A stretch of 64,000 bases of DNA, taken from Candidatus Sulfurimonas baltica. Lineage in GTDB: Bacteria > Campylobacterota > Campylobacteria > Campylobacterales > Sulfurimonadaceae. Where the stretch lies: assembly GCF_015265455.1 (NCBI RefSeq), contig NZ_CP054492.1:1922001-1986000 (forward strand). Reading direction: 5' to 3'. Made by a program: the position numbers and the translations under genes. Below are positions 34,882-39,165 of this stretch, one piece after another. The notes under the pieces were generated by a model. It did no database searches, was not told the DNA's origin, and was given only the letters and a program-made list of their open reading frames with translations. Every line of letters begins with the position of its first letter. The stretch's first letter is position 1.

Positions 34882-35748
34882 ATGAAGATTAAAGATGGAA
34901 AAAACAATTATATGACAACAACCATAATAATTTCAGTTTATAAAAATGTAAAAGCACTTAAGCTTGTTTTGGACTCTATTTTAAATCAAACTATAAATGT
35001 AAATGAGATAATTGTTTCAGAAGATGGTCAATCTCCTGAGATGAAAGAGTTTATAGATAGTTTAACAATCCCACACCTTATACATTTAAACCAAGAAGAT
35101 TTAAAATGGAGAAAAAACATAGCCTTAAACAAATCTATAAAAAAAGCAAGTGGTGATTATCTTATATTTATAGATGGTGATGTTGTCCTGCACAAACGAT
35201 TTGTGGAGGGGCATATTTATTGCTCAAAACCAAAAAGAGTTTGCTCAGGTAAAAGAGTAGAACTTGGTCCCAACTACACTCAAAAACTTTTAGCACATGA
35301 ATTAACCATAGATGAATTATCAGATAGCTTTATAAGAAGAATTATATCTTTACATAAAGACAATGTAAGGCATTATGAAGATGGAATATATATTAATCCA
35401 AAAGGCTTTTTATATAATAAAATCATTCAAAAAAAACACATCAATTATCTAATAGGCTGTAATTTTTCATGTTATAAAGAAGATATGGAGTCAATAAATG
35501 GGTTCAATGAAGACTTTAAACTACCATCTGTTGGTGAAGATGTTGATATCAACTGGCGCTTCAGAGCAAGCGGTATTGAAGTAATATCTTGTAGAAATAT
35601 TGCTAATGTATATCATCTTTATCACAAAAAAGGTTTTAATAATGTGGACCTTGGAATAAATGATAAAATTCTAAAAGAGGCTTTTGACAAAAATCGCTAT
35701 ATTTGTTTAAATGGATTAAATAAGCTAAAAGAAGGAGAGTCTTTATGA
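34882..35748 (+). CDS. GT2-family glycosyltransferase
   Basis: The 288-residue protein has a GT-A fold: [36 protein letters not shown], then a DXD-like [15 protein letters not shown] and [21 protein letters not shown]. It has a clear paralogue at 43095-43913 in the same cluster. The donor is unknown. Its TGA overlaps the rfbA ATG (ATGA). The start could also be the ATG at 34912 (MTTTIIIS). Confidence 0.9.
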
Positions 35749-36635
35749 AAGGAATAATTTTAGCAGGAGGGTCTGGTACAAGACTTTACCCTATAACTAA
35801 AGGCGTCTCCAAGCAGTTAATGCCTATCTATGATAAACCAATGATATACTATCCGCTTTCTGTACTAATGCTTTCTGGTATAACTGAAGTTTTAATAATT
35901 TCCACTCCAAAAGACCTACCAAGATTTGAAGAATTATTAGGTGATGGGTCTGATATTGGTATGAAATTCTCTTATGTGGTTCAACCAAGTCCAGATGGTC
36001 TTGCTCAGGCATTTATTTTAGGAGAAGAGTTTATTGGCAATGATGATGTATGTTTAGTACTCGGTGATAATATATTTTATGGTCATGGATTAACAAATCT
36101 TCTATCAACAAGCGTAAAAAATGCATCTGAGGAAAATAAAGCCACCGTGTTTGGATACTACGTAAGTGACCCGGAGCGTTATGGTGTTGCTGAGTTTGAT
36201 AAAGCTGGTAATGTAACTTCTATTGAAGAAAAACCTACTGAGCCAAAGTCAAACTATGCAGTAATCGGTCTTTACTTTTACCCTAACGATGTGGTAAAAA
36301 AAGCGAAAAATGTTAAACCTAGTGACAGAGGTGAATTAGAAATCACAACTCTAAACCAAGACTACTTAAATGAGAATAGGCTCAAAGTTGAACTTATGGG
36401 AAGAGGTTATGCTTGGCTTGATACTGGAACTCATGAGTCTTTGCTGGAGGCTTCTCAGTTTATACAAACTATTGAAAATCGTCAGTCACTAAAAGTTGCC
36501 TGTATAGAAGAAATAGCCTATGAGATGGGATACATCTCAAAAGAAAAACTTTTGGAATTGGCAGAACCACTCAAGAAAAATCAGTATGGACAATACCTTA
36601 TAAGAAGAGCATCACAGCCAAGAGGTTTAAGATAA
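35745..36635 (+). CDS. rfbA: Glucose-1-phosphate thymidylyltransferase
   Basis: The 296-residue enzyme has the nucleotidyltransferase motif [28 protein letters not shown], seen in two blocks, [12 protein letters not shown], and [18 protein letters not shown]. It makes dTDP-glucose, the first step of dTDP-L-rhamnose. It is the first of rfbA-rfbC-rfbD-rfbB, all overlapping or nearly so. The conserved [12 protein letters not shown] is intact. Confidence 0.98.
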
Positions 36636-36636
36636 T

Positions 36637-37215
36637 TTGAATTTTATAAGAACAGATATCCCAGATGTTGTTATCATAGAACCAAAAGTTCATGGAGATG
36701 AGAGAGGTTATTTCGTAGAAACTTTTCGTGCTGACAAGCTTCAAGAGTTTTTAGGATATACAATCAACTTTTGCCAAGACAATGAATCAAAAAGCTCAAG
36801 AGGAGTTTTAAGAGGTCTTCACTATCAACTTCATCCTGCTGCTCAGACTAAACTAGTGCGTGTAATACAAGGTCGTGTTTTAGATGTTGCAGTAGATATA
36901 AGAAAAGATTCTCCAACATTTGGTCAACATGTAGCAGTTGAGTTAAGTTCTGAAAATAAAAAACAACTGCTAGTTCCAAGAGGCTTTGCTCATGGCTTCG
37001 TTGTTTTAGAAGATGATACTGTATTTGCTTATAAAGTAGACAACTATTACTCGCCTGAAAATGATAGAGGGATTGCCTTTGATGATAAAGAACTAAAAAT
37101 AGATTGGCAAGTTCCACATGCCGAGTTAAATCTATCTGCAAAAGACAAGATACAGCCTAAACTACATGATACTAATGACTTATTTGAATATGGAGTAAAT
37201 TACTATAATGACTAA
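36637..37215 (+). CDS. rfbC: dTDP-4-dehydrorhamnose 3,5-epimerase
   Basis: The 192-residue cupin-fold epimerase has VIIEPKVHGDERGYFVETF, LRGLHYQLHPAAQTKLVRV (His/Lys), and VPRGFAHGFVVLEDDTVFAYK with the active-site Tyr region downstream. It acts on dTDP-4-keto-6-deoxyglucose. The start is a TTG at 36637, 1 nt after the rfbA stop, with AGAGG ~11 nt before; no nearer ATG preserves the family N-terminus. It overlaps rfbD by 8 nt. Confidence 0.96.
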   Translation: MNFIRTDIPDVVIIEPKVHGDERGYFVETFRADKLQEFLGYTINFCQDNESKSSRGVLRGLHYQLHPAAQTKLVRVIQGRVLDVAVDIRKDSPTFGQHVAVELSSENKKQLLVPRGFAHGFVVLEDDTVFAYKVDNYYSPENDRGIAFDDKELKIDWQVPHAELNLSAKDKIQPKLHDTNDLFEYGVNYYND

Positions 37216-38095
37216 TATTTTAGTAACAGGAAGCAAAGGTCAGCTTGGCTCAGAGATAAAAGAACTATCACATGAGATTCCCAGTCAAGCTGAGAATGAC
37301 GGTTATCACTTTTTCTTTACAGACAGAAGTGAACTTGACATTACAGATGAACAATCAATAAAAAACTTTATAGATATTAATAATATAAATATAATTATAA
37401 ACTGTGCGGCATACACTGCTGTAGACAAAGCAGAAGACGATAAAGATTTAGCAGATAAAATTAATTATCAAGCTGTTAGGCACTTGGCACAAATATCAAA
37501 ATATAAAAATATAAAACTTATTCATGTCTCAACCGACTATGTATTTGATGGTAAACACTTTATGCCATATATTGAGACAGATACAACAAATCCAAATGGC
37601 ATATATGGAAAAACTAAACTTGATGGTGAACTTGCAATGCAAGAGGTAAATCCTTTAAACTCTATTATCATTAGAACTTCTTGGGTTTACTCGTCATTTG
37701 GAGCTAACTTTGTAAAAACAATGCTTCGCTTAGGCAAAGAAAAAGAACAACTAGGTGTTATTTACGATCAAGTAGGAACACCTACTTATGCAAGAGATCT
37801 GGCAAAAGCTATTTTAGAAATACTTCCAAATATAAAAAATGAAAAAGTGCAAATTTACAACTACTCAAATGAAGGGGTACTAAGCTGGTACGACTTTGCT
37901 AAAGAGATTATGCTTATGGCAAAACTTACATGTGAAATAAATCCAATTGAAACAAAAGAGTATCCGACACCGGCACTAAGACCACATTACAGCCTACTAA
38001 ACAAATCAAAAATCAAAAAAGAATTCAACTTAACTATCCCATATTGGAAAGATAGTTTAAAAGAGTGCCTAAAAACTATGGGAGAAATAGAATGA
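37208..38095 (+). CDS. rfbD: dTDP-4-dehydrorhamnose reductase
   Basis: The 295-residue SDR-type enzyme has ILVTGSKGQLGSEI, STDYVFDG, YGKTKLDGE (YxxxK) and RTSWVYSSFG. It makes dTDP-L-rhamnose with NAD(P)H. Residues ~23-32 (HEIPSQAENDGY) come from an inserted 26-bp palindromic repeat (37275-37300), which adds several residues in the N-terminal part where homologues that I remember are shorter. The remaining sequence appears intact, so the enzyme is probably functional. Its TGA overlaps the rfbB ATG. Confidence 0.96.
   Translation: MTNILVTGSKGQLGSEIKELSHEIPSQAENDGYHFFFTDRSELDITDEQSIKNFIDINNINIIINCAAYTAVDKAEDDKDLADKINYQAVRHLAQISKYKNIKLIHVSTDYVFDGKHFMPYIETDTTNPNGIYGKTKLDGELAMQEVNPLNSIIIRTSWVYSSFGANFVKTMLRLGKEKEQLGVIYDQVGTPTYARDLAKAILEILPNIKNEKVQIYNYSNEGVLSWYDFAKEIMLMAKLTCEINPIETKEYPTPALRPHYSLLNKSKIKKEFNLTIPYWKDSLKECLKTMGEIE
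37275..37300 (+). repeat. 26-bp imperfect palindrome inside rfbD
   Basis: The unit is AGATTCCCAGTCAAGCTGAG then AATGAC. ATTCCCA and TGAGAAT are inverted with one mismatch around GTCAAGC. The exact reverse complement lies at 38933-38958 in rfbB. It is read through in frame. Confidence 0.92.
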
Positions 38096-39165
38096 ATAAC
38101 ATATTAGTAACAGGGTGTGCAGGATTTATAGGAAGCAACTTTGTCCCTTATTTTTTAGATAAATATCCAAACTACAATTTAATAAATTTAGACCTTCTCA
38201 CATATGCTGGAAACTTAGAAAATCTCAAAGAGTGTGAAGGTAATCCACGATACAAGTTCATAAAGGGTGATATCTGTAATCGTGAACTTGTTGAGTTCAT
38301 ATTTAATGAGTATGACATAAACGGTGTCATTCACTTTGCAGCAGAGTCACATGTAGATAACTCCATCAAAAACCCTGGTGTATTTGTGCAAACAAATGTA
38401 AACGGAACTTTCACACTATTGGATGTAGCTAAACACTACTGGATGAATAAACCATTTGAATATAAAGAAAACTATAAAGGTTGTAGATTTCACCATATAT
38501 CAACAGATGAAGTATATGGAACTCTAAATGAGACAGACCTCTTTACAGAAGAGACACCATATGCTCCAAATTCCCCTTACTCAGCATCTAAAGCAAGTTC
38601 AGATATGATAGTAAGAAGCTACCAAGAGACATATGGAATGAACACAGTCATTACAAACTGCTCAAATAATTATGGTCCAAAACAACATGATGAAAAACTC
38701 ATTCCTACTATTATCAGAAAAGCACTGGCAGGTGAGAGTATTCCAATCTACGGAGATGGTAAGAACATAAGAGACTGGTTATATGTGCTTGACCACTGCA
38801 AAGGTATAGATTTGGTTTATCACACAGGTAAGGAAGCTAATGTTTACAATATCGGCGGAAGAAATGAGAGAACTAATTTACAGATAGTTGATGCTATTTG
38901 TTTAATTCTTGATGAAAAAGTTCCCTTACCTAGTCATTCTCAGCTTGACTGGGAATCTAACAAAAGCATAAAGAACTACAAAGAACTTATTACTTTTGTA
39001 GAAGATAGAGCTGGACATGATAGAAGATATGCCATAGATGCAACAAAACTTGAAAATGAACTTGGCTGGAGAGCTGATGAAGACTTTGATAGTGGAATTG
39101 TAAAGACTGTTGAGTGGTATTTACTTAAATATACAAAACAAGGTGTATATAACAATGTTAATTAA
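38092..39165 (+). CDS. rfbB: dTDP-glucose 4,6-dehydratase
   Basis: The 357-residue SDR enzyme has ILVTGCAGFIGSNFVPYFL, HFAAESHVDNSI, HISTDEVYGTL, YSASKASSD (YxxxK), NYGPKQHDEKLIP and the C-terminal DRAGHDRRYAIDATKLE. It makes dTDP-4-keto-6-deoxyglucose. I start at 38092, where the ATG overlaps the rfbD stop (ATGA), rather than at 38065. A second copy of the 26-bp repeat (38933-38958) adds PSHSQLDWESN between LDEKVPL and the ELITFVEDR block, in a surface loop region by inference. Confidence 0.97.
   Translation: MNNILVTGCAGFIGSNFVPYFLDKYPNYNLINLDLLTYAGNLENLKECEGNPRYKFIKGDICNRELVEFIFNEYDINGVIHFAAESHVDNSIKNPGVFVQTNVNGTFTLLDVAKHYWMNKPFEYKENYKGCRFHHISTDEVYGTLNETDLFTEETPYAPNSPYSASKASSDMIVRSYQETYGMNTVITNCSNNYGPKQHDEKLIPTIIRKALAGESIPIYGDGKNIRDWLYVLDHCKGIDLVYHTGKEANVYNIGGRNERTNLQIVDAICLILDEKVPLPSHSQLDWESNKSIKNYKELITFVEDRAGHDRRYAIDATKLENELGWRADEDFDSGIVKTVEWYLLKYTKQGVYNNVN
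38933..38958 (-). repeat. 26-bp imperfect palindrome inside rfbB (inverted copy)
   Basis: Exact reverse complement of the repeat at 37275-37300, 1.66 kb away. It is read in frame in the opposite orientation, giving different residues (SHSQLDWES). Confidence 0.92.

Follow-up and report, generated by a model that had tools for sequence, protein, structure and literature searches.

The window, by which we mean the whole 64,000-nucleotide stretch of the Candidatus Sulfurimonas baltica genome that was analysed, carries an rfb gene cluster on its plus strand. Two ORFs at 35745..36635 and 36637..37215, which we take to be rfbA/rmlA (used below as a control gene) and rfbC/rmlC, are followed in the same cluster by rfbD/rmlD (37208..38095, plus strand), encoding dTDP-4-dehydrorhamnose reductase (PDB 1vl0, E 8.6e-63), and by rfbB/rmlB (38092..39165, plus strand), encoding dTDP-glucose 4,6-dehydratase (PDB 1bxk, E 8.7e-111). 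RfbD and RfbB are near full-length matches to solved RmlD and RmlB structures, and both match the Epimerase family. Each of the two genes also contains one copy of the same palindrome. The window contains a 22-mer, CATTCTCAGCTTGACTGGGAAT, exactly twice (minus strand, 37277-37298; plus strand, 38935-38956), and 100 dinucleotide-preserving shuffles produced no match to it. Read by eye, the identity between the two genes spans 26 bp, AGATTCCCAGTCAAGCTGAGAATGAC, with the copies inverted and 1659 bp apart. The sequence-only reading of this DNA had described a 26-bp imperfect palindrome lying in both genes in opposite orientations and in open frames, and our analysis bears this out; its exact form is a 27-bp unit consisting of a CGTC tag, an 8-bp stem (ATTCTCAG/CTGGGAAT, with a single T.G mismatch), a five-base CTTGA loop, and a terminal CT. 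The copy in rfbD (37275..37301, minus strand) has the tag CGTC and is translated as IPSQAEND, and the copy in rfbB (38932..38958, plus strand) has the tag AGTC and is translated as SHSQLDWES. The arms of the repeat, ATTCCC/GGGAAT, are also those of the dRS3 element of Neisseria.

The first copy falls between EIKEL and FFFTDR of RfbD (RfbD site 1) and the second between LDEKVP and YKELIT of RfbB (RfbB site 2), both in what alignments suggest are loops. The RfbB insert is gapped against all four chains in the printed structure alignments; among the four printed for RfbD, the insert is gapped against 1vl0 and 3sc6, but not against 1kbz. A further position in RfbB, ENYKGC|RFHHIS (RfbB site 1), is empty in the window gene and filled in some other species.

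The palindrome belongs to a large family in this genome, a single contig of 2,737,757 bp (G000). The exact 22-mer is found three times and sequences with up to three mismatches at 26 places, and a pattern for the whole family matches 114 places, compared with none in a reversed control. The many genomic copies that had been proposed as a check were thus found. In the 311,741 bases examined (fetched stretches plus the window), where 113 of the 114 pattern places fall and outside which lies one, a stem-loop finder set to look for 8-bp stems and 5-base loops, dimensions that the window copies show directly, read 113 elements, of which 111 match the family pattern. Since reversed sequence also yields three elements, a few of the weak members could be chance finds. 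The tag is CGTC in 102 of the 113 elements and TGTC in four; the stem starts with AT in 78, including both window copies, and with AC in 33. Stems vary between elements and keep their complementarity. In 108 elements the stem is followed by CT, mostly as CTAG or CTAA, with the next two bases variable, and a CCA tail is present in one (CCAA). Most elements (86 of 113) form 43 inverted pairs with the tags inside and spacers of 5 to 97 bp, two of these pairs lying in priA, and none of the 43 joins two equal stems as a homodimer would. Many pairs are flanked by similar half-sites, ...AATAATTAGCAA before and TTTATGAATTAATCAGAG... after. By the tag-inside rule 27 elements are unpaired; four neighbours are tag-outside and seven tandem. 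In one region (G000:C1:2483700-2488930), two dense clusters of CGTC units include tandem runs with steps of 42 or 50 bp, unlike the pairs elsewhere. The composite pairs also favour the plus strand, 33 versus 10 (P 6e-4, tested after seeing the data). Each half of the chromosome shows the same bias (15:5 and 18:5), and on the assumption that the origin lies close to position 1 it is not accounted for by the direction of replication; the genes flanking the pairs show no matching orientation bias.

Most of the family lies outside genes: 100 of the 113 elements overlap no ORF of at least 90 codons. Six genes whose products can be recognised contain nine elements between them: rfbD, rfbB, two further epimerase-family genes (603116-604180 and 629898-630806), a periplasmic-binding-protein gene (87599-88495), and, with four of the nine, priA; five of the six genes carry their element as a single unit. 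Another element sits near the start of an ORF that has no Pfam match (850298-851827), and three more ORFs are each partly overlapped by one. The Epimerase family accounts for four of the six host genes as against 14 matches in the genome, an excess that persists when rfbB and rfbD are left out (hypergeometric P 1.1e-4, with 2700 genes assumed and the test made after seeing the data). All three exact copies of the window variant lie in genes, compared with 6 of the 110 other elements (P 3.6e-4, a comparison chosen post hoc). In another genome of the genus (G072), the exact window variant stands in frame in a 325-residue ORF (L339:1796-2773), presumably GalU-like, and is followed there by tandem duplications, IPSQAENDDKTQAENDDKTQAENDD... 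As for the earlier suggestion that the unit tolerates translation in several frames, it holds as a description, with a mean of 3.61 of six frames open per unit. Palindrome-preserving shuffles give a mean of 3.38 and a range of 3.10-3.66, and as the observed value falls inside that range, it does not point to the unit being adapted to coding sequence, a possibility that we consequently set aside.

To place the two window copies among relatives, RfbB was queried against 100 genomes of the same genus, and the loci taken gave 49 RfbB and 29 RfbD aligned sequences. The RfbB set comes from 45 genomes, that of the window included, and consists of the full-length sequences among the matches listed plus four split ones, with the split G048 and fragments excluded. 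Protein lengths range from 334 to 422 residues for RfbB and from 288 to 341 for RfbD, and the extra length sits mostly at a few fixed places. Inserts are present at RfbB site 1 in 11 of 49 sequences (that of L096 resembles a local duplication, those of the other 10 do not); at RfbB site 2 in 13 of 49, where two sequences were unreadable in the alignment and were scored by eye (L073 inserted, L083 not); and at RfbD site 1 in 9 of 29, three being unreadable in the alignment. At RfbB site 2 the window protein has 17 residues where 20 of the 46 readable relatives have four, and at RfbD site 1 it has 14 where 17 of 25 readable relatives have seven. Most relatives do without the repeat residues in these alignments, in agreement with the sequence-only reading, which held that homologues have shorter loops at both insertions; relatives free of the repeat that nonetheless carry the same residues, or just two copies sharing descent from a protein motif, were not what we found. 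The excess of the window genes over the commonest length is 21 nt in RfbD and 39 nt in RfbB, neither of which is 27, and the comparisons show neither a target-site duplication nor an exact empty site for the two window copies. At RfbB site 2, the proteins of L093, L095, and L104 exceed the commonest length of four residues by exactly 9, a net gain of 27 nt.

The inserted peptides vary in sequence and length between species, and so does the DNA that encodes them. A scan for CGTC hairpins picked them up in 5 of 11 inserts at the first RfbB site and in 9 of 13 at the second, and the site-2 insert of L093 looks like a decayed one; the types are CTTGA-type units, CGTCATTGCGAG...GCAATC units, and CGTCATCCTGAG...AGGATCT units. 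In RfbD, an IPS-type unit is found in four of the nine inserts (L057, L075, L082 in slightly changed form, and L095 in altered form). No CGTC hairpin was seen in six of the 11 inserts at site 1 of RfbB, in four of the 13 at its site 2, or in five or more of the nine in RfbD, which indicates that these sites accept other inserts too. Among the hairpin-less inserts, those of L090, L092, and L094 (RfbB) and of L067, L086, and L060 (RfbD) have GGTACGGCTAAAGCC-like sequence or a CAACTAT run, and such inserts at or near the RfbB and RfbD sites may represent further repeat families. On trees built without the insert columns, the distribution of inserts takes a minimum of eight state changes at RfbB site 1, nine at RfbB site 2, and five at RfbD site 1, counting gains and losses alike. 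This makes several separate events likely, with the reservation that the trees are only partly supported and many branches weak: in the RfbB tree 11 of 46 inner branches are starred, and in the RfbD tree 8 of 26. The RfbD genes of L057 and L075 offer one case at closer range: they share an identical 23-nt tract, ATTCCCAGTCAAGCTGAGAATGA, and the remaining gene is 73% identical, with 55% identity at third positions. Such a difference makes long unchanged descent of the tract unlikely, and a new insertion event or the transfer of a short stretch would fit the sequences better.

As a control from the same cluster, RfbA is 293-297 residues long in 27 sequences, the window's own included, and has no internal insertion in any of them (3 of 30 loci were not parsed). 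Compared like for like, the difference is modest (P 0.053): among the first 30 RfbB loci, 5 have an insert at either site, and among the 27 RfbA sequences none has an insert. Long RfbB inserts also occur in two Arcobacteraceae records, at both sites in Arcobacter vandammei (L306) and at site 2 in Aliarcobacter vitoriensis (L289), so the pattern reaches beyond the genus. In the named-loci set of RfbB, 8 of 55 loci lacked a full ORF, and of the 47 others, 15 could not be read at site 1 and one could not be read at site 2.

The same phenomenon is seen in PriA, in the linker before the Walker A motif. CGTC units are present there in 8 of 30 loci, 28 of them with readable linkers; these are the best-scoring loci, a ranking that favours insert carriers, and L327 and L330 end before the linker, while a match in L326, whose tag CGTT does not make it a CGTC unit, was left uncounted. 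Across the 100 genomes, CTTGA-type units occur in 34, with up to 249 copies, and the ATTGCGAG type occurs in 15, with up to 40 copies; the window genome has 109 and 0, respectively. In all eight cases the unit type in the PriA linker is also present in the genome concerned (the counts may include the priA copies): CTTGA in G000, G042, G016, and G052; ATTGCGAG in G004, G080, and G097; and both in G039. For example, G080 has three ATTGCGAG copies, one of them in priA. In a similar way, G041 has 22 ATTGCGAG copies, and its rfbB insert (G041:C11:4009-4036) is among them. In G037, whose genome holds 181 CTTGA copies, the linker is occupied by another kind of insert, and the closest PriA, from G032 (96% identical over residues 159-663), has a linker 150 nt shorter.

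We also searched for an enzyme that could move these repeats. One candidate, a Y1/RAYT transposase (PF01797), gave no match in the window genome, although 5 of 14 control genomes gave one. It matches in 46 of the 100 same-genus genomes (43 above the cut-off); its presence does not track copy number consistently, G000 (109 copies) and G066 (49 copies) having no match, and we rejected it as mobiliser. A true CGTC hairpin was found at 1 of 41 Y1 loci (L161, in G072, which has 219 copies) in a scan that needs a perfect stem of at least 7 bp and that the ATTGCGAG type would escape; the 41 loci are L148-L177 plus L213-L223, with some genes in both sets and some loci cut by contig ends, and a match near the Y1 locus of L170 is an unrelated hairpin. 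A second candidate was a protein of about 464 residues in which a Y1_Tnp-like domain is fused to SapC, a family whose name comes from studies of the S-layer. It has a CGTC pair upstream in 3 of 16 stretches and seemed commoner in high-copy genomes, but neither G000 nor G052 (249 copies) has a match, and it was rejected as well. The fusion (L178-L193, e.g., L182:2013-3404) is full-length in 17 of the 100 genomes, one with an internal stop, and is possibly a domesticated transposase. The sequence-only reading had called the repeat mobile; these searches found no mobilising enzyme, and its mobility is thus presumed.

Our preferred reading, to which we assign a probability of roughly 85%, is that the palindromes in rfbD and rfbB are units of a CGTC-tagged REP family of more than 100 copies, which has spread in the genome, survived in frame within genes, and repeatedly occupied the same loops. 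The units, mostly inverted heterodimers outside genes, would have spread like a small non-autonomous element. A few are found within genes, in frame and in loops or linkers of variable length, and selection presumably removed disruptive insertions. Within the genus, a species' own CGTC families, together with some other inserts, have repeatedly filled the same loops of RfbB, RfbD, and PriA, as is shown by position, by the counts of changes on the trees and, for PriA, by the match between unit type and genome. By analogy with TnpA-REP, whose required tetranucleotide occupies the same place as CGTC does here (PMC6006769), movement would most likely proceed through single-stranded DNA, with an enzyme that reads the CGTC tag and the hairpin foot and joins the unit after CT, leaving the target unduplicated. 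It is conceivable, though we regard it as doubtful, that a single enzyme of the group moves all the CGTC families through tag, foot, and CT end, and that the RfbB, RfbD, and PriA loops are preferred landing sites; if so, orthologues would keep gaining loops from whichever repeat is active in a species.

Other explanations must be weighed against this reading. The inserts could travel with rfb clusters that are traded between species, with recombination swapping palindromes at an old insertion and with no recent transposition. The 23-nt identity between L057 and L075 fits short-tract transfer as well as it fits independent insertion. Two further observations fit this reading: in about 9 to 10 of the 11 inserts at RfbB site 1, P is the last residue before RFHH (in L096 it is G), and the NKSIK that follows the repeat in the window resembles the KQSIK tail of another family in L104. 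However, insert-bearing rows are scattered, with the numbers of changes given above at the three sites, RfbA shows nothing in 27 sequences, and the pattern recurs in the replication protein PriA, whose gene is not part of the rfb cluster. We consider this reading possible but unlikely. That the inserts are selected for, as peptides or RNA hairpins that regulate the sugar proteins and PriA or their messages, appears very improbable. The share of the Epimerase family among the host genes, significant even without rfbB and rfbD, is what such selection might produce, but that Pfam test was post hoc, the peptides differ in sequence and length across species, and most relatives do without them. Finally, RfbB and RfbD are related, each matching the Epimerase family, and a conserved motif inherited by both SDR proteins could in principle explain the shared sequence, as could chance. 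Here, one DNA sequence is read on opposite strands and in two frames, it occupies a different part of each protein, it is missing from most relatives, and the shuffles give no match. These results refute both ideas, and we give them practically no weight.

If the preferred reading is right, small and probably selfish palindromes write new loops into conserved enzymes, repeatedly and at the same places, within one genus. This makes repeat capture testable as a regular source of variation in protein length. It also makes testable the identity of the mover of CGTC repeats, for which Di Nocera and colleagues, in the parts of their 2013 paper used here, report that no linked, dedicated transposase was found (PMC3733652).

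The repeat family itself is already known, and recurrent capture at the same sites is the interesting part. Where the following rests on published work, it refers to passages of the papers cited. CGTC-tagged palindromic repeats have been described from five phyla, with a Sulfurovum sp. listed and with units also inside genes (Di Nocera et al. 2013, PMC3733652). The published features are a CGTC tag (or TGTC/CCTC), a stem of 8 or 9 bp whose first two pairs are almost always A-T, a loop of 4 or 5 bases, and CCA as the commonest, though not required, tail (PMC3733652). The family described here shares the CGTC tag, the 8-bp stem, and the 5-base loop, which are the CGTC-2 dimensions given in the text of that paper, as well as high copy number, complementary stem variation, inverted heterodimers, intragenic units, and the lack of a linked transposase (PMC3733652). 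It differs in its tail (CT followed mostly by AG or AA, where theirs is mostly CCA) and in the single units found in five of six host genes, where more than half of the published intragenic inserts are dimers or groups (PMC3733652).

The sequence-only reading had likened the window repeat to the palindromic elements of Rickettsia and to dRS3, and at the level of the family it was right, since dRS3 and RPE-6 are assigned to CGTC-1 and RPE-4 to CGTC-4 (PMC3733652). RPE-4 and RPE-6 are likewise CGTC palindromes in frame in protein genes, in another host group (PMC3733652). With Rickettsia palindromic elements in general, the family shares in-frame insertion and relatives without the residues, a likeness in working and not in descent. 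As a CGTC-1 repeat, dRS3 has a 4-base loop, unlike the 5-base loop here, and most of its Neisseria copies lie in large clusters, unlike ours (PMC3733652). GTAG REPs, mobilised with RAYT/TnpA-REP, resemble our units in the tetranucleotide that the enzyme needs 5' of the hairpin foot (PMC6006769) and in their inverted dimers, but the tag here is CGTC and G000 has no Y1 transposase match. REPs in Sulfurimonas gotlandica have been counted by RepRanger, in passages that do not mention in-frame inserts (PMC12306157), and our literature search, mostly of titles and the openings of abstracts, returned no description of recurrent same-site capture like that found here. The passages used of the 2013 paper note one same-site case, recB of two Xanthomonas, and place the REPs of other genes of one functional category at different sites (PMC3733652). 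Relative to the CGTC repeats so described, what sets the present family apart is the half-sites outside many of its dimers and, above all, the recurrent capture of units at the same sites of orthologues across a genus.
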